A stretch of DNA of 64,000 bases from Streptomyces sp. CB02056 (GTDB lineage: Bacteria > Actinomycetota > Actinomycetes > Streptomycetales > Streptomycetaceae). Within the stretch, counting starts at the first letter, position 1, and each line of letters opens with the position of its first letter. The stretch covers positions 63,495-127,494 of the forward strand of contig NZ_LIPD01000011.1 in the NCBI RefSeq assembly GCF_001905545.1, written 5' to 3'. Below the pieces are notes generated by a model. It was not told where the DNA came from, made no database searches, and saw nothing but the letters and a program-made list of their open reading frames with translations. Position numbers and translations under genes: made by a program. Positions 17,949-64,000 of the stretch are shown in pieces.

Positions 17949-17982
17949 GGTCAAGGGGTCGCAGGTTCAAATCCTGTCGTCC
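17949..17982 (+). repeat. Attachment site copy 1: tRNA-Pro(GGG) 3' fragment
   Basis: 34 bp identical to 30373-30406. The sequence runs from the 3' side of the anticodon stem through the variable loop and T-arm (GCAGG-TTCAAAT-CCTGT) into the acceptor strand, and 17983-17985 completes the acceptor with CGAC. No D-arm precedes it, and the anticodon loop is damaged (TGGTGG in place of TGGGGG), so this is an att scar and not a working tRNA. It marks the junction between the left and middle elements. Confidence 0.8.
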
Positions 17983-19633: not shown

Positions 19634-19693
19634 GCGCCATGGTTGCGCCAAATCTCCCTTGACCGATTGATGCCGTCATGGTGTCATTGCTTC

Positions 19694-23963: not shown

Positions 23964-26900
23964 CGGAGCGCCGAGCGCGGCACTGCAGCGCATTCTCGAC
24001 GGCGCACTCCCCGTGCCGGAACGAAAGCGGTTTCAGCAGCTCCGCTTGGGACTGATCGGCATCTGGGAGTACGAGGAGCAGGAGTTTGTCTCATACGGCC
24101 ACGGCCTGATCCTGCGCGGCCGGAACGGGGCCGGCAAGACGAAGGTGATGGAAGCCACCAGCCCACTCCTGCTGGACGCGGTCCTCAGCGCCCGCCGGCT
24201 GGACCCGTTCGGCTCCACTGCCCGTCCGATGCGGGACAACCTCTTGCACCGCGGGCGCACCCAGCGCGTCGGATACAGCTGGTGCGAGTACGGACGTGTC
24301 GCCGAGGACGGCAGCCACGAGTACGTCACGATCGGCATCGGCATGCGGGCCAGCACGTCTGTGAAGGGCGGGCTGCACAAACCCTGGTTTTTCGTCACCG
24401 AGAAGCGTGTCGGCAAGGACTTCGACCTGTTCAACGAGCACCGGCAGCCACATCTGCGGAAGCAGTTGGAGGCCCGGCTCGGCCCCCAGAGCGTCTTCGA
24501 GGACCGTCGCGAGTATCGGGCCGCAGTTGCCGAACGCCTCTTCGGATTCAGCTCCGGGAGCCTGGCGTCACTGGTGGAGCTGCTTCTTGTCCTTCGCAAG
24601 CCCAAGCTTAGCGAGAACTTCAACGGCGAGAAGCTCAGCCGGATGCTCAGCAACGGCCTCCCGCCGGTCAGCACCGTGCTCCTGGATGACCTCGCAGTCC
24701 GCTTCGACCAGTTGGCCCGCGACCGGAAGGACCTCGCGCAGCAGGAGCGGCACCTCCTAGGCATGCAGGCATTCCAATCCGTGTACACCAGGTATGCACG
24801 CCGCTGGACCCGGAGTCTGGCTGACCACGTGGTCAAAGCCGAACAGTCACTCGACGAGGCCACCCGTGGCCGCGGCAAGGCATCGGACGAGCTCGCGGAG
24901 GCCGAGCAGGCACTTGATCAGGCCACTGGGGAACGGCGGCAGCTCAAGGAGCGGCACGAGAAGCTCCAGACCACTCTCGGGGAGTTGCGCTCCAATCCCC
25001 TGATGGAGCAGCACGAGCTCCTCTCCCGGCTGCAGGAGCAAGCTGAAGAAGCCAAGGCAAAGCTCCCCGAACTACAGGAGCGGTACAAGAAGGCCGAGAC
25101 TGCAGTCACCGACGCCGCGTCAGCCGCTGACGGGAAGAGGCAGCGCCTCATTGTGGCGGCAGCGGCACTTGGCAAGGCCGAGGAATTGTCGGCGGTCCGC
25201 GCGGCCCAAACCCGGATCGAAGACACGCACACCCAGTGCATTCCAGTGATCCGTACGAGACCGCAGGAAGCGGAGGACACACTTCTCGGCCACGTACAGG
25301 CCCGCGTCAGCGTGCTCGAACGAGCCGTGGAGCTCGCGACATCGGTCCAGAAGGCCCAGGCTGCCTTCGACCATGCCAACGAGGCGTTCCAGAAGAGCAG
25401 GACGCTCTGCAACGCCTCAAGGAAGACCATGAGCGACCACGAAACCGAAGTGGCCAACCAGGTCGCCCTACTCCGCGAAGGCCTGTCCGACTGGGGCGAC
25501 CGCTGCCGCGAGTTCCTACTTACCGACGGCGATCTCACCGAGCTGAACACCGCCGTACCGACGTTCGGTCTGCCTAGCGCTTCCACCCTGTCCCAGGAGC
25601 TCACTCGCCTGGCCAAGCGCTTCTACGAGCAACTGGCCATCACAGCAGCCGGATTGGAGAGCGACCGGCGCCGCGTCGCGAACGATCAGAAGGCGCTCAC
25701 ACGGACTCGTCTGCGGGTGGCTCAGGAGACCGACCCGCTGCCGGCTCCACCGCCCCACCGGCGCCGGGACCGCACTGGCGCCGCCGACGGAGCGCCGCTG
25801 TGGAGACTCTTGGAGTTCGCCCCGCACCTCACCGACTCGGAGAGGACCGGGCTGGAGTCCGCGCTCCTCGGCTCGGGCGTCCTCGACGCCTGGGTCACCT
25901 CCTCAGGGGCGGTCCTCGACAGCAGCACGCTCGATACTGTCCTGCTGGCCGACCGTGCGCCGGTTCCCGGGCCCTCACTGATGACTGTCCTGCAGCCTGT
26001 TGACAACCCGATGGTCCCCGTCGAGGTGACCGCCCGTGTCCTCGCCGGCCTGGCCCTCGCCCGACCTGGCACCCCGCCGCTTTCCGGCGACTGGATCGCC
26101 ACCGACGGGTCCTGGCGAATCGGGCCCGTTCACGGCCGGACTGCCGTCTCGGAGCCCGCTTACATCGGCGCCGCAGCCCGCGAGGCGGAGCGGCAGCGGC
26201 GCCTGCGTGTGCTCGACGAGCAGATCGCCGAGCTGGACGCCACGCTCCTCGATCTGGACGAGCGGCTCGAAACCACTCGCGGGCGTCAGAACGACCTCGC
26301 TTCCGAGTACGAGGATGCGGCCGACCTTGACGTGCCACTGCGCAACTGCCAGCAGGAATTGGCCACCGCTCGGAAGGTCTTCGAAGCACACGACAAACAA
26401 CGCGAACTCGACGAGGCTGCCGCAGCCGGGCGGAAACGGGAGCTTGAGGACGCCGGAGCCGCCCTCGATCTCTACGCGCGGGAACGGGCGACCGCCACCC
26501 GACTCGACCTGCTGGCTTCCGAACAGCACGCACTGCAGGAGTACCGCACAAGCCTTGACGAACTGTTCCGCAAGGTTGAGGCATGGGCACACCGGGAACA
26601 ACAGTTCGAGGATGCTAATAGTCTCCTGAGCATTTGTCAGACCCACCTGGCTGTGGTCGACAAGGATCAGAAGACGGCGATCCGGGATGCCAGCCAGAAG
26701 CGCGAGCAGTACGACGTGCGGCGGCGTGTGGTTGGTGCGGATGTCGATTCCGTGCTGGCCGAGTTGGCCATTGCCCAGAAAGCGCTCGCGGATACGGCGA
26801 AGCAGCAGGAGAACAATGACCGGATGGTCGAACGGGCGATGGAACAGGCCGTCCGTCGCAAGGCGGCACACGAGCAGTCGATCACCTTGGTCGAACAGCG

Positions 26901-28206
26901 CCAAGAGTTGCTGAACGATCGGTCCGGCGACTACGACAGGCTCCAGCAACTCGGTTTCATGGAGTTGGTGTCCGTCATGGGTTCCGTGCCGAGCCCTGAG
27001 ACGAGCGCTGCTTTCCGGGCCCGGGCCGTGCTGCCCGAACTCGCGAACGACCCGGGAGACCAAGGCGCGCTCGACCAGGCGCGCGACGATGTCGACCAGG
27101 CCAGGCACCAGCTCGAACGGGAGCTCGCCGGCCAGGACTGGACCGTCCGCAGCGGAAACGACGACCGGCTGGTCACTGTCCGGCTGATCCACAACGGTCG
27201 CAGCCACACCATCACCCAGGCGTTGGCGGTTGTTGAGACGGAGGTCCGCGAACGCAGCCGCCTCCTCGACGCGAGCGAGCACGACCTCTTCACCGAGGTC
27301 CTCCTCGGACAGGTCGGCGACCACCTGCGCCGTCGCCGGGCAGGAGCCAAGGCCCTGGTTGGGGAGATGAACCGGCTGCTCGGGCTGCGCCGTACCGCCT
27401 CCGGACAGGTCATGCGGCTGGTCTGGGAGCCGGACCCCGAAAAGGGCAGGGAGACCCGGGAGGCCTTGGACACGCTGGACAAGCAGGCGAGCCGGTTTCT
27501 CCCGGACAGCGCGCGCGAGCACCTCATCACATTCCTGGGCCAACAGATCGCGACGGCTCGTGAGGCCGAGGGTGGAACCGACTGGAAGGCCCATCTGCGC
27601 GCCGCTCTCGACTACAGGACCTGGAGCCGTATCCGCGTCCAGTACAAGACCGGACCACAGCAGAAGTGGATCGACATCGACGCCGGCATGCACGGAAAGG
27701 GCTCGGGTGGAGAGAAGGCCGTGATGCTGCAGCTCCCTCTCTTCGCCGCTGCCGCCGCCCACTACACCGGCGCAGCACCCACTGCCCCCCGCCCCGTTTA
27801 CCTGGATGAGGCGTTCGCCGGAATCGATGCCGAAATGCGGGGAGAGTGCATGGGCCTGCTCGTCGAACTCGACTTGGACTTCGTCATGGCGAGCCACGAC
27901 GAGTGGGGCTTCTACGAGGAGGTCCCCGGCGTCGCCACCTACCAACTCTTCCGTGATCCTCAGACCGAAGGCGTGCTGACCACACCGATCATCTGGGACG
28001 GCACCCGGCGTCACGTCATGGTCGATCCGGCACTCGTCGGCGGCGCGGCGCTGGACTTCGGCACGGACGAGGACATCGGCGACGACCTCGACCAGAACGA
28101 GGATGAGCTCTACCCGGACGACGAGGAGGACGTCTTCGACGCCGAGGGCGACGACGACCTCTATAGCCGGACGGGCGACCTGATCAGCGAAGCGGACCTG
28201 GACTGA
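23950..28206 (+). CDS. jetC: Wadjet JetC, SMC-like ATPase (TIGR02680)
   Basis: 1418 aa from the ATG at 23950, inside the end of jetB; a GTG lies one codon earlier. The N-terminal head carries GRNGAGKT (residues 57-64) and the RLDPFGSTARPMRDNLL segment typical of TIGR02680. Long coiled-coil arms with a hinge-like globular part fill about residues 280-1130. The C-terminal head has GKGSGGEKA (signature, near residue 1252) and PVYLDEAFAG (Walker B, near residue 1282), and a SHDEWGF switch. The last 50 residues are very acidic. This is the DNA-extruding motor of Wadjet. All ATPase motifs are intact, so the system looks functional. Confidence 0.92.
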   Translation: MESTDGAPSAALQRILDGALPVPERKRFQQLRLGLIGIWEYEEQEFVSYGHGLILRGRNGAGKTKVMEATSPLLLDAVLSARRLDPFGSTARPMRDNLLHRGRTQRVGYSWCEYGRVAEDGSHEYVTIGIGMRASTSVKGGLHKPWFFVTEKRVGKDFDLFNEHRQPHLRKQLEARLGPQSVFEDRREYRAAVAERLFGFSSGSLASLVELLLVLRKPKLSENFNGEKLSRMLSNGLPPVSTVLLDDLAVRFDQLARDRKDLAQQERHLLGMQAFQSVYTRYARRWTRSLADHVVKAEQSLDEATRGRGKASDELAEAEQALDQATGERRQLKERHEKLQTTLGELRSNPLMEQHELLSRLQEQAEEAKAKLPELQERYKKAETAVTDAASAADGKRQRLIVAAAALGKAEELSAVRAAQTRIEDTHTQCIPVIRTRPQEAEDTLLGHVQARVSVLERAVELATSVQKAQAAFDHANEAFQKSRTLCNASRKTMSDHETEVANQVALLREGLSDWGDRCREFLLTDGDLTELNTAVPTFGLPSASTLSQELTRLAKRFYEQLAITAAGLESDRRRVANDQKALTRTRLRVAQETDPLPAPPPHRRRDRTGAADGAPLWRLLEFAPHLTDSERTGLESALLGSGVLDAWVTSSGAVLDSSTLDTVLLADRAPVPGPSLMTVLQPVDNPMVPVEVTARVLAGLALARPGTPPLSGDWIATDGSWRIGPVHGRTAVSEPAYIGAAAREAERQRRLRVLDEQIAELDATLLDLDERLETTRGRQNDLASEYEDAADLDVPLRNCQQELATARKVFEAHDKQRELDEAAAAGRKRELEDAGAALDLYARERATATRLDLLASEQHALQEYRTSLDELFRKVEAWAHREQQFEDANSLLSICQTHLAVVDKDQKTAIRDASQKREQYDVRRRVVGADVDSVLAELAIAQKALADTAKQQENNDRMVERAMEQAVRRKAAHEQSITLVEQRQELLNDRSGDYDRLQQLGFMELVSVMGSVPSPETSAAFRARAVLPELANDPGDQGALDQARDDVDQARHQLERELAGQDWTVRSGNDDRLVTVRLIHNGRSHTITQALAVVETEVRERSRLLDASEHDLFTEVLLGQVGDHLRRRRAGAKALVGEMNRLLGLRRTASGQVMRLVWEPDPEKGRETREALDTLDKQASRFLPDSAREHLITFLGQQIATAREAEGGTDWKAHLRAALDYRTWSRIRVQYKTGPQQKWIDIDAGMHGKGSGGEKAVMLQLPLFAAAAAHYTGAAPTAPRPVYLDEAFAGIDAEMRGECMGLLVELDLDFVMASHDEWGFYEEVPGVATYQLFRDPQTEGVLTTPIIWDGTRRHVMVDPALVGGAALDFGTDEDIGDDLDQNEDELYPDDEEDVFDAEGDDDLYSRTGDLISEADLD

Positions 28207-28207
28207 C

Positions 28208-29482
28208 ATGCGCGCTCACGTCGTGCTCCACCCCGACCTCGCGGAATGGACGGCCACCCCGGGCGGCCGGCTCTTCTGCACCCTGGCGCGCGAGCGCATC
28301 GCCAATGGGGGGAAGCTGGACCGTCCCATGCGTATGCGCCTGACCGCACGTGAACGTGCCGACCTGGTCGACCTCTTCGGCACCAACGCCGTGACCGGTC
28401 AAGGTATCCACCTCGGGCGGGCTGACGCCGTACTGCGCGGCAGCCGCCATGCGTTGCCCCTACGGCAACTTCTCATCGGTGCGGACGGACCTATCAGGAC
28501 CAAACGCGGCCAAGCCCGCTATCGCTCGATCGTCAAGCGCCAGAAGGTACTCAGAGAACGTGCGGAGGCCTTGGCCGCGATGGCTGGTGTGCGGGAGCTC
28601 ACATCGGAACGCTCCCTGCTCGCGGCGCTCCCGGACGACAGCCGCAGGCTCGCGCCAGCCGGAACACACACCGGAACCAGCCATTGGGCCACCTACTACG
28701 CCGCCGTACGAGCTGCGGCAGAGTGGTACCGAGGATCGAGCCGTGGTTGGAAGTACGGCGAGCGCGAACTTGCGACGCAAGCCCTCGGTGGAAGCAAGCA
28801 GTGGACCGATGCGTCCAAGGCTGCCTTCTCCAAGTTGATAGGGAGGCCGTTCAGCGATGCGGTCCATACGACGGACACCGGCCTGCGAATGACCGGCCCT
28901 GCTGAATGGCACCGCCAGGGCCTCGTGGCCGACCTCTCTCGGGCCGAGCCGTTCATCGAACTGCCCGGAAGAGCTGCGGCCCAGGACGGCCACCTCGACC
29001 TCCAGGCCACGGGGGTTCTCCTGATAGAGAACCAGGAGACCTTCGAGGCCGTTTCCTCGCGCACGACCGTCCCCACCGAATGGCTGTGCATCTGGACCGG
29101 AGGCTTCGCCTCCGACGCACTGGCGCTCTTCCTGCGCAGTCGCGTGCCGCCTTCGCTCCCGATCGCGGCATGGGGAGACCTCGACCCGCCTGGTGTCGGG
29201 ATCATCCTCAACCTCGCGGAGAAGAGCGACCGGGCCATCCGGCCAATCGGCATGGATGCGGTCCTCTACCACAACGGAAGCAAGCTCGACGAAGAACCGG
29301 CGGAGCTGGAACGCTGGCGAGCAGCTGCCCAGACGATGACCGAGTCTGTGCCGGCGCACTTTCAAGGGCTCCTCGCAGCGATCGTCGCTCACGGGGGAAT
29401 GCGCTGCGAGCAGGAAGGACTCCACGAGCAGGTACTTCCCCAGTTGCATCGATGGCTCAACGAACTCGCGCGGCGAGAATAA
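28208..29482 (+). CDS. jetD: Wadjet JetD, Toprim-fold nuclease subunit
   Basis: 424 aa, starting 1 bp after the jetC stop. Residues about 265-345 carry a Toprim core: a Glu in LLIENQETFEAV and a DxD in AWGDLDPPG. The N-terminal 200 residues contain winged-helix and basic segments (SSRGWKYGERELA). JetD is the topoisomerase VI-like nuclease that cuts circular DNA held by JetABC. The gene order A-B-C-D and the first three families indicate type II Wadjet (whose JetD is DUF2399). The WGDLDPPG form is reminiscent of the DUF2220 group of types I and III, so the subfamily of this subunit is less certain than its role. Confidence 0.87.
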   Translation: MRAHVVLHPDLAEWTATPGGRLFCTLARERIANGGKLDRPMRMRLTARERADLVDLFGTNAVTGQGIHLGRADAVLRGSRHALPLRQLLIGADGPIRTKRGQARYRSIVKRQKVLRERAEALAAMAGVRELTSERSLLAALPDDSRRLAPAGTHTGTSHWATYYAAVRAAAEWYRGSSRGWKYGERELATQALGGSKQWTDASKAAFSKLIGRPFSDAVHTTDTGLRMTGPAEWHRQGLVADLSRAEPFIELPGRAAAQDGHLDLQATGVLLIENQETFEAVSSRTTVPTEWLCIWTGGFASDALALFLRSRVPPSLPIAAWGDLDPPGVGIILNLAEKSDRAIRPIGMDAVLYHNGSKLDEEPAELERWRAAAQTMTESVPAHFQGLLAAIVAHGGMRCEQEGLHEQVLPQLHRWLNELARRE

Positions 29483-30372: not shown

Positions 30373-30406
30373 GGTCAAGGGGTCGCAGGTTCAAATCCTG
30401 TCGTCC
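30373..30406 (+). repeat. Attachment site copy 2: tRNA-Pro(GGG) 3' fragment
   Basis: Identical over 34 bp to 17949-17982. Here the anticodon arm is intact (CTTGA-CTGGGGG-TCAAG, 30363-30379, anticodon GGG), identifying the target as tRNA-Pro. The D-arm and 5' acceptor strand are absent; AT-rich DNA replaces them. The acceptor has CTGAC where copy 1 has CCGAC. It is the right boundary of the island. Confidence 0.8.
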
Positions 30407-31010: not shown

Positions 31011-31754
31011 TCAGAGGTGGGGGGTGCGGGTGAAGTGGTGGGTGGCGGTGGTGAAGAGGAGGGTGCACCAGGCGGTGGTGGTGAGGGTGGGGAGGGTGGG
31101 GGAGGGGGCGGCGGAGAGGCGGGTGACGGCGGAGGCGGGGAGCCAGGGGGAGATGTCCCAGCCCTTGGTGGCGGCGAGGGCGGTGAGGGCGGACTCGGCG
31201 ACCAGGGTCCACCCCAGGACTGTTCCCAGGGCTGCCGCGGTCGACCGCAGGAGCAGGCCGGTGGTGGAGCCTAGGACCGTGTAGGCGGGCATCGCCGCGA
31301 GCAGGCGCAGGGTGGTGGACGGGGCTCCGTCCCAGTGGGGTGGGGAGCCGTGGCGTGCGGTGGTCAGGGTGGTGGTCGCCGCGCAGGTGGCCCAGACGGT
31401 GGCGGCGACCAGCAGGGACAGGAGGGCCAGCCCGGCGAGCTTGCCGGTGACGAGTGCGCCGCGGGCCGGCTGGCGGACCAGCAGGTTCCGCCAGGTGCCC
31501 TCGCGGTACTCCTGGCAGAAGGCGTTGGCGGCCACGCACATCATGACCAGGCCGATCAGGGGTGTGGCGGTACGGGCGGGGCCGAGCAGGTCCACCGGGC
31601 CGGGGTCGTCCCGGAGGGCGGCGGTGCCGGCGGCGGTGCCGGCGGCGACCGCGGCGGTGGCCGCCGCGACGGAGCCGAGGAGCGGCCAGAGCAGCCGCGG
31701 CCGGAGCAGTTTGACCAGCTCGCTGCGGAACGCCTGGTGCACGCGGGTCAGCAC
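31011..31754 (-). CDS. ABC-2 type transporter permease (likely bacteriocin immunity/export)
   Basis: 247 aa with about six hydrophobic helices. The N-terminus FRSELVKLLRPRLLW and the conserved ANAFCQEYREGTWRNLL segment are typical of ABC-2 permeases of the BcrB/LanEFG kind. The start overlaps the end of the upstream ATPase gene by 7 bp, so the pair forms one transporter. It is the last gene of the minus-strand operon that begins with the circular bacteriocin precursor. Extra ABC transporters at the end of such operons usually raise producer immunity, which I infer here. Confidence 0.82.
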   Translation of the reverse strand: MLTRVHQAFRSELVKLLRPRLLWPLLGSVAAATAAVAAGTAAGTAALRDDPGPVDLLGPARTATPLIGLVMMCVAANAFCQEYREGTWRNLLVRQPARGALVTGKLAGLALLSLLVAATVWATCAATTTLTTARHGSPPHWDGAPSTTLRLLAAMPAYTVLGSTTGLLLRSTAAALGTVLGWTLVAESALTALAATKGWDISPWLPASAVTRLSAAPSPTLPTLTTTAWCTLLFTTATHHFTRTPHL

Positions 31755-32761
31755 GGGACAGCTGTCCTCTCGGTCGGGCTGGTCGGGCGAGGAGGGGCGG
31801 TCGGTGCGGGCCCGGCGCCGGTGACCAGGGCGAGGAAGGCCTGCTCCACGGAGGTCCGTCGGACGGCCAGGTGGGCGAGGGTCACGCCGCCCGCCGCCGC
31901 GATCCGGTTCAGTTCGGCGGCCGCGTCGGCGGGGGCCTCGACCAGCAGCAGCCCGTCCTCGTGGCGGTTGGGGTACCCGGCCCCGTTCAGCACGTCGTGG
32001 AGGGCCGCGCCGTCGGCGGCGGACTCCGGGGCCAGTTCGACGACGGCCGTCCGGGAGGCGGTCAGCTCCGCCCTGCCGCCCTGGAACAGCACCCGGCCCC
32101 GGTGCATCAGGACGAAGCGGTCGCAGATCGCGTCCAGTTCGTTGAGCTGGTGGCTGGAGACCAGCACGGTGGCGCCGGCGTCGGCCAGGGACCGCAGCAG
32201 CTCCCGGAGTTGGAGGATGCCGATCGGGTCGAGCCCGTTCATCGGCTCGTCCAGGACGAGCAGCCGGGGCTCGGGGAGCAGGGCCGCGGCGATGCCGAGC
32301 CGCTGGCGCATGCCGAGCGAGTACCCGCCCACCGGTCGGCCGGCGTGGGCGGTGAGGCTGACCTGCTCCAGCACCTCGTCGACCCGGCCGCGGGGGATGC
32401 CGCCGAGTTCGGCGAGCACCCGCAGGTTGGTGCGGGCGTCGAGCCGCCGGTAGAGCGCGGGTTGTTCGATCAGCGCGCCGACCGCGTGGAGGTAGCGCTC
32501 GGGCCGGTCCAGCGGGTGCCCGAGGACGGTGCCGGTGCCCGCGTCGGGGCGGTCCAGGCCCAGCAGGACGCGCATGGTGGTGGTCTTGCCGGAGCCGTTG
32601 GGCCCGATCAGCGCGGTCAGCGAGCCGGCGGGGACGGTCAGGTCGACGCCGTCGAGGGCGGTGAGGGCGCCGTAGCGGCGGCGCAGTCCGCGGACCTCGA
32701 CCGCCGGGCCGGCCGTCCGGGCGCTGGGAGGGGCGCTGGGAGGGGCGCTGGGAGGGGTCAT
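31748..32761 (-). CDS. ABC transporter ATP-binding protein (BcrA-like)
   Basis: 337 aa; its ATG overlaps the stop of the preceding ATPase gene by 4 bp. Walker A GPNGSGKT, Q-loop IEQPALY, signature YSLGMRQRL, Walker B LLVLDEPMNGLD and switch His in SSHQLNE are all present. A C-terminal extension of about 90 residues after the nucleotide-binding domain is usual in the BcrA/lantibiotic-immunity subfamily. The first residues repeat APPSAPPSA, encoded by a short tandem repeat at 32726-32758. It pairs with the following permease. Confidence 0.88.
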   Translation of the reverse strand: MTPPSAPPSAPPSARTAGPAVEVRGLRRRYGALTALDGVDLTVPAGSLTALIGPNGSGKTTTMRVLLGLDRPDAGTGTVLGHPLDRPERYLHAVGALIEQPALYRRLDARTNLRVLAELGGIPRGRVDEVLEQVSLTAHAGRPVGGYSLGMRQRLGIAAALLPEPRLLVLDEPMNGLDPIGILQLRELLRSLADAGATVLVSSHQLNELDAICDRFVLMHRGRVLFQGGRAELTASRTAVVELAPESAADGAALHDVLNGAGYPNRHEDGLLLVEAPADAAAELNRIAAAGGVTLAHLAVRRTSVEQAFLALVTGAGPAPTAPPRPTSPTERTAVPC

Positions 32762-33504
32762 GGTGTGGCGGGCTCCGTGCTGGCCGGGTGGGTCGGGGAG
32801 TCGGCGGTGGTGAGGAGGGTGCCGGTCGGGTCGAGGCGGTGCAGCGCGGCGGTGGCCGTCTCGCCGTCGAGCCGGAGGTCGTGGCGGACGGCGCCGTGGT
32901 CCAGGACGACCAGCCGGCTCACCAACTCGTCGGCCCAGCCGAGGTCGTGGGTGCAGAACAGGACGGTGCGCCCCTGGTCCCGCCAGTCGGCGGCGGCGGC
33001 CCGGAGCGCGCCGGCCGCGCCGCTGTCGAGGCCGTTGGTCGGCTCGTCGAGCAGGAGCAGCCGGGGCCGGTGCACGGTGGCGACGAGCAGGCCGAGCTGC
33101 TTGCGGATGCCGAGCGAGAGCTCCCGGACGAGGGCGTCCGGGCGGTCCTCCAGGGCGGTGCCGGCCAGCGCGGCGAGGGCCTCCCGCACCGGGGCGTCGT
33201 ACAGCCTGGCCGCTAGGACCAGCTGCTCACGGACGGTCAGGTAGTCGTAGAGCGGCGGTTCGGCGGGGGCGTAGCCGCGCTCGGCCCGGACGGCGAGCGC
33301 GGTGGCCGGCCGGCCGGCGACGGCGACCCGGCCCGAGGTGGGTTCCTCCAGCCCGGCGAGCAGCCGCAGCAGGGTGGTCTTGCCCGACCCGTTGTGGCCG
33401 ACCAGGGCGACGAACTCGCCCTCCCCGACGGTGAGTCCGACCTCGGCGAGGGCGGTGTGCCCGGCGTACCGGACACTGGCGGATTCGACGGCGATCACGG
33501 GCAC
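32758..33504 (-). CDS. ABC transporter ATP-binding protein (bacteriocin export/maturation)
   Basis: 248 aa from a GTG that overlaps the end of the upstream membrane gene by 10 bp. It has Walker A GHNGSGKT, signature LSLGIRKQL and Walker B LLLLDEPTNGLD followed by CTHDLGW. It lies directly after the large membrane protein gene, so those two probably form the core transporter. Circular bacteriocin clusters need an ATPase together with membrane proteins for cyclisation-coupled export; this is the best candidate here. Confidence 0.87.
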   Translation of the reverse strand: MPVIAVESASVRYAGHTALAEVGLTVGEGEFVALVGHNGSGKTTLLRLLAGLEEPTSGRVAVAGRPATALAVRAERGYAPAEPPLYDYLTVREQLVLAARLYDAPVREALAALAGTALEDRPDALVRELSLGIRKQLGLLVATVHRPRLLLLDEPTNGLDSGAAGALRAAAADWRDQGRTVLFCTHDLGWADELVSRLVVLDHGAVRHDLRLDGETATAALHRLDPTGTLLTTADSPTHPASTEPATP

Positions 33505-35133
33505 ACCTTCCGGATTCGGAGATCACTTCGGGCCGCGAACCGCAGGACGGCCAGCAGCAGGGCCAGGTCGAGCAGGCAGGCCGCCGCCTCGACGGCCCCG
33601 CCGGTGCCGGTGGCCGAGCGGAGTAGCGGCCCGGCCGCCGCGGGGGCGGCCAGCACCGCGGCCAGCAGGCCCTCCACGGTCTCGGCCGCGCCGGAACGGG
33701 CGGCCCGGCCGTCGGCGAAGCCCTCGGCGGCCGGGGTCAGGAAGGCGGCGGCCACCAGCGCGCAGCTTCCGGCCAGCAGCGCGACGGGGAGGGCGAGCAG
33801 CGCGCCCGCGGTCACGCTCCCGCCGCCGACCAGCAGCAGCCCGAGGTACAGCGGTACGACCGGTACGGCCGCGACGGCGCAGCAGGAGGCCACCTTCCCG
33901 GCCAGGATCCGGCCGAACGGCACCGGCGCCTGGCGGAGCAGGTCGAGCGACCGCTGCTCGGCCTCGACCCCCGCCACCTGGGCCACCACGGTGGACAGTG
34001 CCAGGAACACGGCGAGCGCCAGCGGAACGCTCCAGGCGCCCAGCGGGAGCCGCCACGGCGGTTCGCCGCCGTGGCCGAGCCGGACCCCCGCGCCGAGCGC
34101 CGCCAGGGCGAGGCCGACCAGGGCCGTCCGGAACAGCGCGCCGGTGCTGGCGACGGGGCGGCGGCGCAGCGCCAGCAGGTCCTTGGCCGCGGGCAGCAGC
34201 ACCGGTGGCACCCGGTCGAGCAGGGTGCTGGAGGTGTGTGCGGCGGCCGCGGGCCCGCCGGGGACGGCGGGGCGGAGCGCGCCGCGGGCGGCGGCCCGGC
34301 GCAGCAAGGAGGTGGGCGAGGCCGCCGAGCAGCAGCAGGGCCGAGCACCAGCCGAGCAGGGCCGTCCCGAGCCGGTCGGGGTCGAGCAGGCGGTCCCAGA
34401 GGTCCGGGCGGAGGCGGGCCACGGCGGAGCGCAGCGCCGCCCCGTACTCCTCGGGTTCGGCCCGGCCGGACAGGTGGAGGCGGTCGGCGAGCGGTCCGAG
34501 GACGAGCCCGAGGGCGGACAGCCCCGGCAGCAGGACGCCGAGCGCGGCGAGCGGCAGGGCCCGGCGCGGGCCCAGCATCAGCGCGGCGGTCGCGGCCACG
34601 TGGCCGAGCGCTCCGGCCAGCGCGGATCCGGCGACGGCGGTGAGCACGGCGGGCAGCAGGGCCCGGCCCGCGGGGGAGGCGGCCAGCCAGGGGCCGGCCG
34701 CCAGGCCCGCGACCGCCACGGAGCCGACGGCCCCGGCCAGGGCGGGCAGCCAGAGGCGGGCCAGGAACACGGACTGCTGCGGCACCCGCCAGGAGAGCAG
34801 GACGGCGCGGTCGGGCGGATCGAGCAGCAGCCGGGCCTGGTTGGGCCGCGCCGAGAGCAGGTGGCCGGCGACCAGCACCACCACCACCGACCAGCAGGCG
34901 CCGGACACGACGGTGCCGTCCTCGGGGCCGACCGGGAAGACCCGGCCGAGCGCCGAGCCGATCCCCCAGAGCAGGGCCGCGACGGTGGCCAGGCCGACGC
35001 CGACGGCCAGCGCGAGCACGGCCCGGGCCGGCGGGGCGAGGGTGCGCAGCCCCGGGAGGCGGTTGCGCCGGCGCCGCAGGTCGGCGTCGACCAGGGCCAG
35101 CCCGGCGGTCCAGGCGAGTCGGCGGCCGTCCAT
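33495..35133 (-). pseudogene. Large polytopic membrane protein (ABC-2-like), apparent single-base frameshift
   Basis: The ATG at 35133 overlaps the previous stop as TGATG. The frame encodes about 275 residues with several hydrophobic helices (MDGRRLAWTAG ... LLLLGGLAHLL); near 34306-34312 the plausible sequence moves to the next frame and continues (LRRAAARGALRPA ... DLRIRKVCP) to a stop at 33495. The total, 1639 bp, is one base over a multiple of three. Repaired, the product is about 545 aa with roughly 12 membrane helices, a probable ABC-2-type permease partner for the ATPase that follows. Either the gene is broken, or the base is a sequencing error in a GC-rich tract. The operon around it looks intact, which favours an error or a recent mutation. 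Confidence 0.7.
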
Positions 35134-35555
35134 CAGTCCCGCCGGCCGGTGAGCAGGGCGACCGCGCTGGCCGCGACGACCAGGACGCAGAAGCCGGCGG
35201 CCGTCCCGTTGAGTCCGGCGGCGGCGGGCAGCCGGAAGCCCGCCACCCCGAGCGGCATGCAGACCAGGGCCGAGAAGCCGAACAGCAGCCAGCGGCCGGT
35301 GGAGGCCAGGGCGACCACCGCGCCGAGGGCGAGCAGCAGGACGGCGGCCGCCAGCCAGCCCCAGTTGAGCAGGTCCTGGGTCTGCACCACCGTCGACCGG
35401 GCGGCGTCGACGACCCGGTCGGCCCGGTCGACCGCGGCCAGGGTGTCCGGCCGGCTCGTCCAGTACCAGACCGTCCGGACCCCGGCCAGGACGGCGGCGG
35501 CCACGGCCAGCAGGCCGGCCACGGCCGCACCGGTCGGCTTGATCTGCGATACCAC
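35133..35555 (-). CDS. Small membrane protein of the bacteriocin operon
   Basis: 140 aa from a GTG at 35555 preceded by AGGAG 11 bp upstream; a longer version from 35615 is possible. Four hydrophobic helices are visible, with a hydrophilic loop between the first two (YWTSRPDTLAAVDRADRVVDAAR). The stop overlaps the next start (TGATG). I do not recognise a family. Small integral membrane proteins in circular bacteriocin operons commonly act in immunity or secretion, which is the likely role by context. Confidence 0.7.
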   Translation of the reverse strand: MVSQIKPTGAAVAGLLAVAAAVLAGVRTVWYWTSRPDTLAAVDRADRVVDAARSTVVQTQDLLNWGWLAAAVLLLALGAVVALASTGRWLLFGFSALVCMPLGVAGFRLPAAAGLNGTAAGFCVLVVAASAVALLTGRRD

Positions 35556-35657
35556 GGTGATGTCGGCTCCTCGGTCGTGCGGGGTCGTACGGGTCGTACG
35601 GGGTCGTTCTCTCAAGCGGTGCGGGCGGCGCGGGCCCGGTCCCGGCCCGGCGCGGGC

Positions 35658-36276
35658 TCAGCGCGGGATCAGGCAGAGCGCGAGGAGCACCGCCGTGGGC
35701 GCGAGCGCGGCCGCCGCGCTGCGGGCGGGGCTCAGGCCGGTGCTGCGGCGCAGGACCTCGGTGAACCGCGAACAGCACGACCAGGCCGAGGTCGGCGCTG
35801 CCCAGCGCGTCCACCAGGCCGTCCCAGGAGGGGCGGCCGACCAGGGCGGCGCCCGCGCCGAGCAGCAGCAGCTTGCCCACGAAGTAGAGGGCGGCCACCG
35901 TGCCGACGGTCGCGCGGTCCCGGGCGAAGCCGTCGCGGGCGCCGGCCAGTCGGCAGGCGGCGGCACCGGCGGCGCCGGCGAGCAGGACGGCCAGCAGCAC
36001 GCCGATCGCGCCGAGCACCGATCCGAACAGCCAGCCCGCCCAGACGCCGGCCTTCACTGCGCCCGGTGCCGCGTCGGGGATCTTCTCCAGGACGGCCGCG
36101 CGGTAGCGGTCCAGGAGGCCGAGACCGGCCAGGGGTTGGACGAGGACGGCGAGCGCCAGGGCGACGCGGTGGCGCAGGCGCCCGGCCCGGCCGTCGTCCC
36201 GGCCGTCGTCCCGGCCCTCGGGCGCGGCCTCCGGATCGAGCAGGGGACGGTGGTCCGTCGTGGTGGTCAAGGTCAT
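35658..36276 (-). pseudogene. Membrane protein of the bacteriocin operon, apparent single-base frameshift
   Basis: The ATG at 36276 overlaps the SpoIIM-like gene stop as ATGA. About 170 residues with membrane helices (for example LRHRVALALAVLVQPLAG, VGTVAALYFVGKLLLLG) run to LGLVVLFA near 35770. There the coding signal moves to the next frame (FTEVLRRSTG ... VLLALCLIPR) and stops at 35658. The length, 619 bp, is one base over a multiple of three; an extra G in GCGGTTCACC near 35766 would explain it. Repaired, it is about 205 aa with about five helices. This is the same type of error as in the gene at 33495-35133. Confidence 0.68.
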
Positions 36277-36815
36277 CGGGGGCTCACCCACGTTTCCACG
36301 CCCGCGGCCACGGCGAGCGCGGCCAGCGAGGTTCCGAAGAGGACAGCGGCGTCGACCACGTGCTGGCTGAACGGGGCGCCCCGTCCGGACACCAGGCGGC
36401 GGGACAGCCCGAGCGCCGGGGCCAGGCCGGCCGCGACGGCGAGGCCGAGGGCCGGCAGTTCGAGCACCGCGTGCGGTCCGACGGCCCGCAGCAGTTGGCT
36501 CCCGCCCAGCGCGTACGCGTGCCCGATCAGCACGCCGACACCGAGGCCGGAGAGCAGCGAGAAGGCGACCGTGGTCAGGCCGAGGGTGGCGACTCCGCTG
36601 AAGGCCAGCGCGGCCACCTTGGCGTTGTTGAGGAAGACCTCGAGCCACAGGCCCGGACCGGCGGGTTTGGGTTCCACGCGGACGGCGGACTCGATGCCGC
36701 CCGAGCAGGAGATCCCGATCGCCATGCAGGCGAACCAGAGCAACTGCCCGGCGGCCACGGCCCAGCGCTGCCGGGCCCAGGCGGCTGCGAGCCCTCCGCG
36801 GACTCCCGCGATCAC
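36273..36815 (-). CDS. Stage II sporulation protein M-like (SpoIIM/DUF95) membrane protein
   Basis: 180 aa from a GTG at 36815 with GGGGAGGG just upstream. Five hydrophobic helices. The segment VFLNNAKVAALAFSGVATLG and the later HAVLELPALG are the hallmarks of the SpoIIM/DUF95 family (FxNN near the start of a helix, then a conserved Glu in an LPA context). A DUF95 protein encoded next to the precursor is a defining feature of circular bacteriocin clusters, where it is required for maturation or secretion. It follows the precursor by 82 bp and is coupled to the next gene by ATGA. Confidence 0.85.
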   Translation of the reverse strand: MIAGVRGGLAAAWARQRWAVAAGQLLWFACMAIGISCSGGIESAVRVEPKPAGPGLWLEVFLNNAKVAALAFSGVATLGLTTVAFSLLSGLGVGVLIGHAYALGGSQLLRAVGPHAVLELPALGLAVAAGLAPALGLSRRLVSGRGAPFSQHVVDAAVLFGTSLAALAVAAGVETWVSPR

Positions 36816-36897
36816 GTCGTCCCTCCCCAAGTCGTCTGCTGCACACGGCCGGTGGGCCGGACCCCGCCGGTGCGGCGGGGTCCGGCCGGCGCCCGGG

Positions 36898-37182
36898 TCA
36901 GGCGATGATGGCGCGGCGGCCGCCGGCGGTGATCGCCTTCTTGAGCATCCACATGGCCACGCCGCCGGCGGCGGTGACGCCACCGAACAGCGAGAGGGCG
37001 GCGGCGACGTCGGTGCCGGCCTCGATGGCGGTCAGCACGCGGTCGGCGCTCTTGCACTCCAGGCCGAAGTAGCCGGTCAGCACGTCAGGGGTGGTGGCGG
37101 CCAGCAGGAGCGGGGCGCTCAGACCGGCAACGGCCGCGCCGGCGGCGGCGATGCGCTTCTTCGGGGTCGAGAAAACGGACAT
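36898..37182 (-). CDS. Circular bacteriocin precursor (AS-48/carnocyclin/uberolysin-like)
   Basis: 94 aa from the ATG at 37182, with CTGGAG six bases upstream. The N-terminal part is basic then hydrophobic (MSVFSTPKKRIAAAG). The C-terminal 60 residues match circular bacteriocins: VLTAIEAG parallels the VEAG/INAG segment, LSLFGGVTAAGG parallels the LGGVT segment of carnocyclin, MLKKAIT the basic helix, and the end GGRRAIIA parallels GKRAVIA of AS-48. Cleavage after residue 34 would release a peptide starting with Leu, as in most members, of exactly 60 residues, the size of carnocyclin A; head-to-tail joining would be Leu35 to Ala94. The cut site is inferred. A single Cys at mature position 9 is unusual. 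The product would permeabilise Gram-positive membranes. Confidence 0.85.
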   Translation of the reverse strand: MSVFSTPKKRIAAAGAAVAGLSAPLLLAATTPDVLTGYFGLECKSADRVLTAIEAGTDVAAALSLFGGVTAAGGVAMWMLKKAITAGGRRAIIA

Positions 37183-37211
37183 GTTAATCTCCAGTTCGCC
37201 ACTTTTAGGGA

Positions 37212-37847
37212 GTGGTTGGGAACATCCGGCAGCCACCGGTCGCTTCGGGACTGCGCCTGATCATCGAATCCGACCCCGTGCTGACGGTGGTGGCGGACTG
37301 TCCGGTGGACCGGGCGGTCGAGCAGGCCCGCGCGCTCCAGCCCGACCTGGTCCTGCTCGACCTCGGCCGCCAGGCCGACGCGGCCCTCGACACCCTGCTC
37401 TCGCTGATCTACCTGCCCCGGGCGCCCCGGGTGGCCATGCTGGCCACGGAGGAGGACGGCGACCTGCTGAACCGGGCGCTGCGGCACGGCGCGGTCGGCT
37501 GCCTCCGGCGGAACGCCCCGAGCGGCCTGCTGCTGGACGCCGTCCGGGTGCTCACCTCGGGCGGCACCGTGGTCTTCCCGCAACTCCGGTCGGCCGCACC
37601 GGCGGTGGCTCCCGAGCCGCCCGACCGGCAGGTCCCGGCCCGGCTCAACGCCCGTGAGCGGGAGCTCCTGGTCTGCCTGGGCGAGGGTCTGTCCAACGCG
37701 GACATCGCCGAGCGGCTGTACCTCCGCCCGGCGACCGTCAAGGACTACGTCAGCGAGCTGCTCGCCAATCTGGGCGTCCGCAACCGGACCCAGGCCGCCG
37801 TCCCGGCCGAGCGGTACGGACTGCTCAGGGCCCACGCCGCGGCGTGA
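37212..37847 (+). CDS. LuxR/NarL-type regulator with truncated receiver domain
   Basis: 211 aa from GTG at 37212; an in-frame TAG at 37206 rules out a longer protein. The C-terminal 65 residues are a LuxR HTH (LNARERELLVCLGEG ... SNADIAERLYLRPATVKDYVSELLANLGV). The N-terminal part resembles a NarL receiver from helix 1 onward, with the phosphoacceptor-like Asp in LVLLDLGRQ, but the first beta strand with its acidic pocket (usually a DD pair) is absent. Phosphorylation is therefore doubtful. Its start is 29 bp from the divergent bacteriocin precursor gene, which makes it the obvious candidate regulator of that operon. Confidence 0.82.
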   Translation: MVGNIRQPPVASGLRLIIESDPVLTVVADCPVDRAVEQARALQPDLVLLDLGRQADAALDTLLSLIYLPRAPRVAMLATEEDGDLLNRALRHGAVGCLRRNAPSGLLLDAVRVLTSGGTVVFPQLRSAAPAVAPEPPDRQVPARLNARERELLVCLGEGLSNADIAERLYLRPATVKDYVSELLANLGVRNRTQAAVPAERYGLLRAHAAA

Positions 37848-39860: not shown

Positions 39861-40257
39861 GCCCGCAGGATACGGACGATCGGGGCGGTGTCGCGGGTGC
39901 GGGAGTCCCACGGGTGCCCAAACATGTCCCGTCGATTTCTTGCCGAGATCGCTCAGGTGTCCGTGGTGACGGCGGGTTCCGCGACCGGCCGTGCCGGACC
40001 GTGATCTTCCGGAAACCACCAGGTGGGACCGGGACGGACGTTGACCTGCGGTCTTCCGCCAGATGGGCCGAAAACGCGTGGTCGGCCGTCGAACGGGCTT
40101 GTCGGGCGGTGCGGTGCGTATGTCAGTCTCTGGGGGCCGTGTGCCGTGTTCCACAGTGTTCTGACGGGGAATTCCGAATCTCTCTTTCCTTTCCCTGGTT
40201 CTCCGGGATGCGTTCCGTCATGCCGTCGGTCGGTTCGAAGTGATAACAGGGGGCGTC
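39861..40257. other. Divergent promoter region between aminotransferase and PKS genes
   Basis: 397 bp with no credible gene. It must hold the start of the megasynthase transcript. A TTGACC at 40049-40054 is the only -35-like element I see, without a convincing -10. GGGGG six bases before 40258 serves as the ribosome site of the PKS. No clear operator or direct repeat was noticed. Confidence 0.4.
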
Positions 40258-43200
40258 ATGTCTGATCTCCGCCATGGGCATTCCGAGGCCTCCGTGAATT
40301 CCGCGGGAAATCGGTCGGTGCCGGAGGAACCCATCGCGTTGGTCGGAATCTCCTGCCGCCTGCCGGGGGCTGCCGGACCCCGGCAGTTGTGGGACCTCCT
40401 GCGGGACGGCCGCAGCGCCGTCACCGAAACTCCCGACGACCGCCGGGGCGGTTCCGGGGGGCCCGGGGACGACGAGCCGTCCGCCCTGCGGTGGGGGGCG
40501 TTCCTGGAGGACGTGGACCGGTTCGACGCGGGGTTCTTCGGGATCGGCCCGCGCGAGGCCGCCGCGATGGATCCGCAGCAGCGCCTGGCCCTGGAGCTGA
40601 GCTGGGAGGCCTTCGAGGACGCGGGAATCCGCCCGGAGACCTGGCGCTCCCAGGACACCGCCGTCTTCCTCGGCGTGGCGTCCGGCGACTACGGCCTCCT
40701 GCTCGACCGGCGAGGGCCGGCCGCCCGGACCCCGCACACCGTTGCCGGCACCCAGCGCGGCATGACGGCCAACCGCGTCTCGTACGCCCTCGGACTGCAC
40801 GGCCCCAGCCTCACCGTCGACGCCGGCCAGGCGTCGTCGCTGGCCGCCGTCCACCTGGCCTGCGAGAGCCTGCGGCGCGGCGACTCCGCGCTCGCCGTGG
40901 CGGGCGGGGTGCACCTCAACCTGCTGCCCGACACGGCGCACGCGATGGCCGGGCTCGGCGCGCTCTCGCCCGACGGCCGCTGCTTCACCTTCGACGAGCG
41001 GGCGAACGGCTACGTCCGCGGCGAGGGCGGGGCGATGGTGGTGCTCAAGCCCCTGAGCCGGGCCCTCGCGGACGGGGACCCCGTGTACGGCGTCCTGCTC
41101 GGCAGCGCCCTGAACAACGACGGCGGCGGAGAGGGACTGACGGTGCCGGCCCGGGCCGGGCAGGAAGAGGTGCTGCGGCGGGCCTGCGCGAGGGCCGGTG
41201 TCGACCCCGCGCACGTCCAGTACGTCGAACTGCACGGGACGGGCACCAGGGTCGGCGACCCGGTCGAGGCCGCCGCGCTGGGCGCCGTGTTCGGCGCGGC
41301 CCGGACGGCCGGCCAAAGCCCCCTGCACGTCGGCTCGGTGAAGACGAACGTCGGCCACCTGGAGGCCGCGGCGGGCGTGGTCGGCCTGGTCAAGGTGGCA
41401 CTGTCGCTCCAGCACGCGACGCTGCCGCCGAGCCTCGACTTCCGTACCCCCAACCCGTTGATCGACATGGACGCCCTGCGGCTGCGCATGGTGACGGACC
41501 GCCTGCCGTGGACCGGGGCGGACGGCACCCGCCTCGCGGGCGTCAGCTCCTTCGGTCTCGGCGGGACCAACTGCCATGTCGTGCTGTCCCAGCCGCCCGC
41601 CCCCGCCGCGGACACCCGGGCGCCGGCGGACGGCGGTTCCGGCGTGGTGCCGTGGGTCCTGTCCGGTGCCACACCGGAGGCGCTGCGGGCCCAGGCCGAC
41701 CGCCTCCGGTCGTACGTGGCCGAGGAGCCCGACGCCGAACCCGCCGACGTGGCCCTCGCGTTGGCCACCACGCGCGCGACCCGGGAGCACCGCGCGGTCG
41801 TCGTCGCGGCCGACCGCGAGGAGTTCCTCCGGGCCCTGACCGCCGCCGCCGAACCCGGCGGAGTCGACCCGGCACTGGTCCGGGGCAGCGTCGCCGAGGA
41901 CGGCGAGGTCACCTTCGTCTACCCGGGCCAGGGCTCCCAATGGGACGGCATGGCACGGGAGTTGCTCGACACCTCGGCCGTCTTCCGGGAGCGGATGGAG
42001 CAGTGCGACGCGGCGCTGCGGCCGCACGTCGACTGGTCGCTGCTCGACGTCCTGCGCGGGACGCCCGACGCCCCGCCCCTGGAACGGGTCGACGTCGTCC
42101 AGCCCGCGCTGTGGGCCATGATGCTCGCGCTGACCGAGGTGTGGGGCTCCTTCGGGGTGCGTCCCGACGCCGTGGTGGGGCACTCGCAGGGCGAGATCGC
42201 CGCCGCGTGCGTCGCGGGCGCCCTCAGCGTCGAGGACGGCGCGAGGATCGTGGCGCTGCGCAGCCGCGCGCTCGGCCGGCTGGCGGGCACCGGCGCCATG
42301 GCCACCGTCTCCCTGCCCGTGGCGCAGGTCCGCGACCGGCTCGAACGGGGCTGGGACGGGGTGGAGATCGCCGCGGTCAACGGGCCGGTGTCCACGGTGG
42401 TCTCCGGCCCGCCCGGGAGCGTCGACCGGCTGCTGGCGGAGTACGAGGCCGAGGGCGTCTGGGTGCGCGCGATCCCGGTCGACTACGCCTCGCACTCCGG
42501 CGACGTGGAGGTCCTGCGGGACGCGCTGCTGACGGAACTCGCCGGGATCACCCCGCGCCGGTCGCGGATCCCGTTCTGCTCCACCGTCACCGGTGAGATC
42601 ACCGACACCACGGAGCTGGACGCCGGCTACTGGTACCGCAACCTGCGCCGGCCGGTCCGGATGGAGACCGCCACCCGGCACCTGCTGGAGGCCGGGCACC
42701 GGACGTTCGTCGAGGTCAGCCCGCACCCGGTGCTCACCGTCGCGCTCCAGCAGACCGTCGGTGCCGCGGCGGCGGTCACCGGGACGCTCCGGCGGGGCGA
42801 GGGCGGTCCGCGCCGTCTGCTGGACTCCGTCGCCCGGCTCCACGTGCGCGGTGCGCGGGTCGACTGGCAGCCCGCGCTCCGGACGGGCAGCGGGCGCCGG
42901 CTCCGGCTGCCCACCTACCCGTTCCAGCGGCAGTCGTACTGGCTCGACGGCGAGGACCGGCGCGAAACCGCGGCGGTGGACGGGCGCGAGACCGTGGCGG
43001 TGGACCGGCGTGGGCCCGCGGTGGCGGACCGGCGTGTGCCGTTCGGCGCGGAGACCGGGGCCCCCGCACCCGGGCCGTCGCGGCCCGGCCACGGCGAACT
43101 GACGGGCCTCGTACGGGAACACGCCGCGGCCGTGCTCGGCCACCCGGAGCCCGGGCTGGTCGACACCTCCCGCCGCTTCAAGGACCTCGGCTTCAACTCG

Positions 43201-46200
43201 CTGGACGCCGTCAACCTCCTGGAACGGCTGACCGCCGCCACCGGCGTCCCCCTCCCGCCCACCCTGATCTTCGACCACCCCACACCCGCCCTCCTGGCGG
43301 AGTGGCTGCGCACGGAACTCGCGGGCGAACGCACCGACACCGGCACCGCACCCCTCCGCACCCCCCACGACGACGAGCCGATCGCGATCGTGGGGATGGG
43401 GTGCCGCTACCCGGGCGGGGTGAGCTCGCCGGAGGACCTGTGGCGGCTGGTGTCGGAGGGGCGCGACGCGATCTCCGGCCTCCCGGAGGGGCGGGGGTGG
43501 GACCTGGAGCACCTCTACGACCCCGATCCCGACGCGGGGGAAGGCGGGCGGACGTACACGCGCGGCGGGGGTTTCCTGCACGACGCGGACCTGTTCGACG
43601 CGGGGTTCTTCGGCGTTCCGCCGCGCGAGGCGGAGGCGATGGACCCGCAGCAGCGGCTGCTGCTGGAGGTGTCGTGGGAGGCGCTGGAGCGGGCGGGGAT
43701 CCGTCCCGACACCCTGAAGGGCAGTGCGACCGGCGTCTTCACCGGAGTGATGACCAGCGGCTACCGGCCCGCCCCCGCCCGGGTCCCGGTGGAGTTCGAA
43801 GGGCACGTCCTGACCGGCAACGAGAGCAGTGTCGCGTCCGGCCGGGTGTCCTATGTGCTGGGGCTGGAGGGCCCGGCCCTGTCGGTGGACACGGCGTGCT
43901 CGTCGTCGCTGGTGGCGCTGCACCTGGCGGTGCAGTCGCTGCGGCGGGGCGAGTGCTCGATGGCCCTGGCCGGCGGCGTCACCGTCATGGCGGCCCCGGC
44001 CACCCTCATCGAGTTCGCCCGGCACCGGGGTCTGTCCCCGGACGGCCGGTGCCGGGCGTTCGGTGAGGGGGCCGAGGGGACGGGGTTTGGTGAGGGTTGC
44101 GGCGTGCTGGTGCTGGAGCGGTTGTCGGACGCGCGGCGGGCTGGGCGCCGGGTGTTGGGGGTGGTGCGGGGTTCGGCGGTGAACCAGGACGGTGCGTCGA
44201 ACGGGTTGACGGCGCCGAGCGGTCGGGCGCAGGTGCGGGTGGTGCGCGGGGCCTTGGAGGATGCCGGGTTGGCGGCGGGTGACGTCGACGCGGTGGAGGC
44301 GCACGGGACGGGCACGCGGTTGGGCGATCCGATCGAGGCGCAGGCCTTGCTGTCCGCCTATGGGGCGGGGCGTGAAGTGCCGTTGTGGCTGGGGTCGGTG
44401 AAGTCGAACATCGGTCATACGCAGGCCGCGGCGGGTGTGGCGGGTGTGATGAAGATGGTGCTGGCGATGCGGCACGGGGTGTTGCCGCGGACGTTGCACG
44501 CGGAGGTGCCGTCGTCGCATGTGGACTGGTCCTCGGGCGGGGTGGAGCTGCTGGCCGAGGCTCGGGAGTGGCCCGTGCTGGACCGGCCGCGGCGGGCGGG
44601 TGTGTCGTCGTTCGGGATCAGTGGGACGAACGCGCATGTGATCGTGGAAGGGGTCGCCGAAGAGCCAACCACCGCAGCTGGGCGCCCTGTTGATGATGTG
44701 GTGCCGTGGGTGGTGTCCGGCCGGTCGGTGGAGGCGTTGCGGGCGCAGGCGGGCCGGCTGGCGGAGCACCTGACGGAGCGCCCGGAGGTCGGCGCGGGCA
44801 GCGTCGGCTGGTCGCTGGTCGCGCAGCGCTCACTGTTCGAGCAGCGCGCCGTCGTGACGGGCGCCGACCGTGAAGAACTGCTCGCCGGACTGCGGACCCT
44901 TGCCGAGGGCGGCACGGCGGACAACGTCACCGTCACGCCCTCCACCACGCCCCCCGACGGCTCGAACAGGCTCGCGCTGCTCTTCACCGGCCAGGGCGCG
45001 CAACGCCTCGGCATGGGCCGCCGACTGCACCGGGACTTCCCCGTCTTCGCGAAGGCGTTCGACGAGGCGTGCGCGCAGTTGGACGCGCACCTGCCCGTCC
45101 CCCTGAAGGACGTCGTCTTCGGTACGGACGCCGACCTCCTGGACCGCACCCTGTACGCCCAGTCGGCCCTGTTCGCCCTGGAGACCGCGCAGTTCAGGCT
45201 CCTGGAGCACTACGGCATCAGGCCCGACCACCTGCTCGGACACTCGGTCGGCGAGGTGGCCGCCGCCCATGTCGCGGGCGTGCTCGACCTGCCGGACGCC
45301 GCGCTCATGGTGGCGACGCGGGGACGGCTGATGCAGGCCGCCCGCGGCGACGGCGCCATGATCGCCGTGGAGGCCACCGAGCAGGAGGTCCTGACGGTCC
45401 TCGGAGAGCGCGAGGACCTGGCGGGGATCGCCGCCGTCAACGGCCCGCGGTCCGTGGTGGTCTCGGGTGATGCCGCGGTCGCCACCGAGGTCGCGGACCA
45501 CTTCGCGGCGCTGGGGCGCCGGACCAGGCGGCTGCGGGTCAGCCACGCCTTCCACTCTCCCCACATGGACAGCGCGCTGGAGGAGTTCCGCACCGTTCTC
45601 GAAGGCCTGACCTTCAGCGCCCCCGTCCTCTCCGTCGTGTCCAACGTGACCGGGCGGGAGGCCACCGCCGAGCAGCTCTGCTCCCCCGACTACTGGGTGT
45701 CCCACATCCGCCGTGCCGTCCGGTTCGGCGACGGGGTCGAGCACCTCGCCGGGCTCGGCGTGGGGACCTACCTCGAACTCGGCCCCGACGGTGTCCTGAC
45801 CGGTCTGGTCCCGGACTGCCTGCCGGCCGGGACCGACGCGGTCACCCTGCCGCTGCTGCGGGCCCGGCGCCCGGAGTCCGGCTCCCTGCTCACCGCGGTC
45901 GCCCAGGCCGCGTTCGCCGGCCACCTGCCCGACTGGTCCCCGCTCTTCCCGGGCGCGCGGCCGGTGGAGCTGCCGACGTACGCCTTCCAGCACCGGTCCT
46001 ACTGGCTGACGCAGGACACCGCCGTCGCGGACGTCGCCTCGGCGGGTCTGGAGACGGTGGGGCATCCGCTGCTGGGCGCGGCGGTCGAGCGGCCCGACGG
46101 GAGGGGCTGGGTGTTCACCGGCCGCCTGTCGCCCACGACCCACCCCTGGACGGAGGACCACGTCATCGGCGAGGAGGTGCTGCTGCCCGGTGTGGCGCTG

Positions 46201-49770: not shown

Positions 49771-49791
49771 GGTAAGGGAAAGGTGAGCCCC

Positions 49792-64000
<14,209 letters not shown>

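Follow-up and report, generated by a model that had tools for sequence, protein, structure and literature searches.

Does an operon in a streptomycete genome make a circular (head-to-tail) bacteriocin? The operon lies at positions 31,011–37,847 of a 64,000-nucleotide (nt) stretch of Streptomyces sp. CB02056 (contig NZ_LIPD01000011.1), the whole of which is called the window here. Circular bacteriocins are very stable antimicrobials. Almost all of their known producers belong to the Firmicutes, and no enzyme for leader removal or ring closure has been identified. We read the operon, with a probability of about 0.85, as one for circular bacteriocin biosynthesis in a Streptomycetaceae branch of the uberolysin/carnocyclin/AS-48 class; cyclization and killing are what we infer for its product. 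The computed basis for this reading consists of the family to which the precursor belongs, the fold predicted for its core, a gene order that is conserved, and the purifying selection seen in relatives. The peptide class itself is known, and it is the Streptomycetaceae branch that appears undescribed so far.

From 37,182 down to 31,011, all on the minus strand, the operon comprises genes for a 94-amino-acid (aa) precursor, a SpoIIM/DUF95 protein, two small membrane proteins (M2, then M1), a large permease of the ATP-binding cassette type 2 (ABC-2) kind, the ABC ATPases ATP2 and ATP1, and a second ABC-2 permease. The limits given in a previous sequence-only reading of this DNA held: the last permease gene ends at 31,011 and a divergent regulator gene at 37,847. 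The DUF95/SpoIIM and ABC ATPase genes that PMC8534725 uses as criteria accompany the precursor gene, here and in relatives.

Precursor peptide and predicted core

The precursor gene (36,898–37,182) begins with an ATG preceded by GGAGA at a spacing of 5 nt. The window precursor scored 20.2 bits against TIGR03651 (E = 5.6e-4; cut-off 30.7) and 15.8 bits against PF09221 (E = 0.016; cut-off 23.6). Two full-length orthologues, L006 (25.3 bits, 61% identical) and L011 (23.7 bits, 79% identical), reached the PF09221 cut-off; because they clear it, the family can be taken as settled, and residues L35–A94 are, as judged from homology, a member of the uberolysin/carnocyclin/AS-48 family. When the PDB was searched with the single window precursor sequence, carnocyclin A was the top match (E = 0.01); a five-sequence profile gave carnocyclin A (8.9e-4), NKR-5-3B (0.013), and, lower, AS-48 (0.68). 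With hhalign, at a probability of 87.5%, the region from approximately V34/L35 to A94 paired with a stretch of the AS-48 precursor that runs from about the start of the mature peptide to A69.

Residues M1, P32, L35, and A94 were invariant across 11 homologues, and the core was therefore predicted to be L35–A94, LTGYFGLECK...GGRRAIIA (36,901–37,080, minus strand), in the alignment register of carnocyclin A and AS-48. The predicted leader, M1–V34, has a basic-hydrophobic, signal-peptide-like pattern, and leaders measured 26–35 aa in 11/11 homologues. Cleavage would fall after V34, and ligation would join L35 to A94. The predicted core has 60 residues, a net charge of +2, and an isoelectric point (pI) of 9.1, with a calculated average mass of 6014.0 Da if linear and 5996.0 Da if circular. 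Predicted cores ranged from pI 9.1 to 10.6 and from +2 to +5 in net charge; subgroup I circular bacteriocins likewise have basic and cationic cores (PMC10028692).

Circular bacteriocins of this class are marked by a compact, saposin-like core with four or five helices and about 58–70 residues. The linear core was modeled with AlphaFold2 from an alignment of ten sequences. The prediction had four helices (residues 9–20, 25–33, 40–52, and 55–59) and a mean predicted local distance difference test (pLDDT) of 69.6. A Foldseek search of 350,542 PDB chains returned four matches, all circular bacteriocins (carnocyclin A, NKR-5-3B, AS-48, and plantacyclin B21AG), with template modeling scores of 0.56–0.76, normalized by query. 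VIA-align of the model to the same four gave Z scores of 5.0–7.0 and root-mean-square deviations (rmsd) of 2.1–2.6. Because the Foldseek E-values are weak, given so tiny a protein, and a VIA Z of 5.0–7.0 is not decisive by itself, the fold argument rests on the specificity of the match list. The sequence-only reading had held that the last 60 residues parallel AS-48 and carnocyclin and had named a compact helix bundle as its check; the likeness exceeds chance in family models, PDB search, hhalign, and fold match, and a compact four-helix core, with PDB matches exclusively to circular bacteriocins, is what was predicted.

Carnocyclin A (Carnobacterium maltaromaticum, subgroup I) has the same 60-residue core length, a four-helix fold, and a collinear sequence match that includes GGVT, whereas its leader is 4 aa long (PMC10028692) rather than 34, identity is approximately 30%, and its host belongs to the Firmicutes. 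Enterocin NKR-5-3B is circular, has a long leader, and matches the core model at Z 7.0 and rmsd 2.1, but its core has 64 residues and its host is again a member of the Firmicutes. Enterocin AS-48 (Enterococcus faecalis pPD1, L019) has a hydrophobic leader, 35 aa from the Met common to the Listeria form. Its core end, GKRAVIAW, compares with G(R/K)(R/K)A(I/V)(I/V)A in the Streptomyces family and GGRRAIIA in the window; unlike the window core, it has 70 residues and a C-terminal Trp.

Distribution and conservation of the operon

A scan of genome contigs with the single window precursor sequence gave no match; a profile scan of these contigs found nine Streptomyces loci (in S. pathocidini, S. natalensis, S. 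violascens, and others), and a separate genome search added L006. The whole operon recurs in ten further sampled Streptomyces genomes, with gene order kept and precursor identity of approximately 35–79%. The loci form two clades, one window-like (MSxxxxxKK leader, LTxYFGL core start) and one violascens-like (PFFLK...GGKKAVIA). For each gene tested in close pairs of relatives, the nonsynonymous rate (dN) was lower than the synonymous rate (dS), and the precursor was among the slowest to change; the intact relatives are under purifying selection.

The operon is rare. It was found in 1/70 genomes of the window's genus (the window copy only), which belongs to the same family as Streptomyces, in 5/395 genomes of the family sample, and in 7/393 Streptomyces genomes clearly, plus one marginally (9.5e-4), or approximately 2%. 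Plasmids searched with the window precursor and the carnocyclin core gave no match. Nor did a PF09221 search of 395 genomes of the class, in which the controls were silent too, making it uninformative on absence. In the search for a syntenic empty site within the window's genus, the flanks could not be aligned to genomes G005 and G050 past the aminotransferase.

The claim that such an operon is unusual in actinomycetes stands as to rarity: of 6,928 precursors in Xin et al. 2020, 6,925 were from Firmicutes, 2 from Actinobacteria, and 1 from Thermotogae (PMC8534725). It would not stand as a claim of precedence, since van Heel et al. 2017 reported five clusters from propionibacteria (PMC5695211). 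Streptomyces is unmentioned in the main text of Vezina et al. 2020, Major et al. 2021, and van Heel et al. 2017, and the literature searched describes no circular bacteriocin from Streptomyces, although such a description may exist elsewhere.

Membrane machinery, immunity, and regulation

The gene set named in the sequence-only reading, SpoIIM, membrane proteins, two ABC ATPases, and a permease, mostly in overlapping order, was confirmed, with two ABC-2 permeases and start/stop overlaps at five junctions (SpoIIM-M2, M1-permease, permease-ATP2, ATP2-ATP1, and ATP1-permease). The SpoIIM/DUF95 membrane protein (180 aa; 36,273–36,815; PF01944, 2.1e-17) has an LPHxxxEL block in common with SpoIIM of the AS-48 cluster, and SpoIIM has been called class-defining for circular bacteriocins, in distinction to leaderless ones (PMC11580447). 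The AS-48 cluster also resembles the window operon in its ABC ATPase, its large membrane protein of approximately 550 aa, and its extra ABC system; unlike the window operon, it has an RND adaptor.

The large permease (33,495–35,133) was modeled on the L011 protein and is predicted to consist of two tandem six-helix ABC-2 halves, assigned from the helix pattern at a low-to-moderate pLDDT of 61.4. Full-length matches to this model were the mycobacterial one-chain efflux pump 8k1n, with 12 transmembrane (TM) helices, which we take to be Rv1217c-1218c, and its sister entries; each half matched ABC-2 exporters such as NosY, ABCG, and PmtCD. The mycobacterial pump likewise holds a double ABC-2 permease in one chain, but its role is efflux and it has no peptide precursor or SpoIIM partner. 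The large permease is comparable to As-48B in size (540–574 vs. 556 aa), is rich in TM helices, and has a short ERx4LLRxxP-like stretch at a similar position, but profile comparison gave no significant match between the two. A Listeria innocua plasmid (L064, 3,001–4,583) carries an AS-48-like cluster whose As-48B-like gene may itself be broken, because it aligns in two pieces and only the distal part is annotated.

Adjacency suggests that ATP2 (32,758–33,504; PF00005, 2.1e-27) likely powers the fused double permease. ATP1 (31,748–32,761; PF00005, 1.8e-27) had as its best NCBIfam match the lantibiotic-protection ATPase TIGR03740 (8.5e-63, 212 bits, under the 309.75 cut-off). Because of this resemblance, ATP1 and its partner ABC-2 permease (31,011–31,754; PF12679, 1e-8, and PF12730, 3.9e-8, both over cut-off) are likely an immunity exporter. 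The small multi-TM protein M1 (140 aa; 35,133–35,555), which is kept in relatives (identity 55–58% in clade I and 32–36% in some clade II operons), is a possible immunity protein. The divergent NarL/LuxR-type response regulator (37,212–37,847, plus strand; PF00196, 6.6e-12) fell inside the coordinates of the sequence-only reading, whose text did not name it; helix-turn-helix genes matching it occur near the related operons in L011, L012, L014, L016, and L018, which marks it, by gene neighborhood, as a genuine operon-associated gene.

As we picture the pathway, the 34-aa hydrophobic leader would be removed after V34. The machinery of the class, still unidentified, would join L35 to A94 within a membrane complex formed by SpoIIM, ATP2, and the fused double ABC-2 permease. 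The resulting cationic 60-residue helical ring would be exported and would kill neighboring bacteria by membrane permeabilization. ATP1 and its permease, perhaps with M1 or M2, would protect the producer, and the NarL/LuxR protein would control expression.

SpoIIM was earlier proposed to serve the ATPase as its membrane-spanning part (PMC7132975); the Streptomyces lineage has a permease alongside SpoIIM and the ATPase. We tentatively suggest, with more doubt than belief, that Streptomycetaceae own a two-clade circular bacteriocin lineage in which the fused double ABC-2 permease forms the base of the maturation/export complex; if the equally large "B" proteins of Firmicutes (As-48B/CirB) were equivalent, the ATPase would have a true permease partner, and SpoIIM would be a maturation/cyclization factor, not a membrane anchor. 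Having a second lineage, high in GC, that keeps the precursor/SpoIIM/ATPase core but has other accessory genes helps to tell essential machinery from lineage-specific parts, and it brings the system into Streptomyces, hosts in which cluster expression and deletion are easy.

State of the window copy

The sequence-only reading spoke of a full operon, and as sequenced the operon is not intact. The gene of the small multi-TM protein M2 (35,658–36,276) changes frame at approximately 35,753–35,775 and that of the large permease at approximately 34,305; in relatives each is a single open reading frame (ORF), of 183–210 aa (clade I) and 540–574 aa, respectively. GC content at third codon positions (GC3) was 0.94 on one side of the M2 break and 0.97 on the other. 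The intact frames of the neighboring polyketide synthase (PKS), open at 40,165–49,767 and 49,771–63,999 with one ordinary stop between, served as a yardstick for the frame accuracy of the assembly; because these 23.8 kb read without a frame break, the assembly is not generally indel-rich. The window copy has been either recently disabled or mis-sequenced at the breaks, and completeness of the operon in this strain is doubtful. Streptomyces sp. WAC08241 (L018, 12,395–15,539) likewise has frame-split genes in its related operon, namely those for the large permease and the two ABC ATPases.

The strongest competing account, evenly balanced in our judgment, is that the window copy is a decaying remnant of a real family, in which two inactivating frame changes silenced export and maturation. 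Decay fits two breaks within 1.5 kb, in genes intact in relatives and beside an unbroken PKS, with a long homopolymer at neither break; yet the frames past both breaks keep a GC3 of 0.94–0.97 and approximately 50–63% identity to relatives, so that any loss would be very recent. The breakage in L018 and the standing of the window copy as the sole one among 70 genomes of its genus also agree with decay, whereas both breaks fall in the window's most GC-rich stretch (34,001–36,000, 79.7%), where assembly errors are likeliest, and the permease break coincides with the point where the two ABC-2 halves meet.

Weighing the circular reading

Several points besides the two out-of-frame genes weigh against a circular bacteriocin operon. 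The confidence of the core model is only moderate, the window precursor by itself lies under the curated Pfam and NCBIfam cut-offs, and the large permease gave no significant profile match to As-48B (hhalign probability 0.1%). The operon has no ORF for a small As-48D1-like immunity peptide, which the AS-48 cluster has. Circularin A needs an aromatic C-terminal residue (PMC10028692), where the window core has Ala, and product and activity are presumed from the class. The interpretation stands for the family, the predicted helix bundle, and the gene set, and not for cyclization, antibacterial action, or the working state of this copy. Because the precursor scores under both cut-offs, routine annotation would miss such clusters.

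It is improbable that the product is a linear helical peptide, secreted or membrane-active, that is related to circular bacteriocins by descent and fold and forms no ring. Sequence cannot reveal cyclization, the leader pattern would suit secretion of such a peptide, and maturation enzymes are unknown even for characterized circular bacteriocins (PMC8534725; PMC10028692); however, L35 and A94 are invariant in 11/11 homologues and coincide with the AS-48 and carnocyclin ends, and SpoIIM is present. A leaderless (aureocin A53-like) bacteriocin operon, a type with a similar helical fold and 97 Actinomycetota core peptides on record (PMC11580447), is scarcely credible beside a leader in all homologues, a SpoIIM gene, and PDB matches of the core model to circular bacteriocins and to no leaderless one.

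Neighborhood of the operon

The circular bacteriocin operon had been described as lying beside a signal peptidase inhibitor cluster. An extra lspA (signal peptidase II, PF01252; 37,948–38,580, minus strand) was rejected as an operon member, being absent in the 3.5–20 kb around related operons; it does adjoin the type I PKS (40,165–63,999, plus strand). Another lspA-like match lies elsewhere in the genome (C1:581207), and the extra lspA could give self-resistance to an LspA-inhibiting polyketide.

The 3′ end of a tRNA-Pro(ggg) occurs three times (17,950–17,982, with the intact tRNA; 30,374–30,406; and G000:C3 at approximately 48.1 kb), and these copies delimit two tandem integrated elements. 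The operon lies outside the last attachment repeat (30,374–30,406), and its being cargo of the adjacent tRNA-Pro element is unsupported. The second element carries an integrase (18,365–19,651, minus strand), a Fic-domain protein (19,643–20,827, plus strand), and a complete Wadjet type II-like jetABCD set (21,121–29,482, plus strand). The first carries two large helicase-type ORFs (DEAD, ResIII/SNF2; 2,861–8,131 and 8,253–11,207, plus strand), possibly a further defense system.

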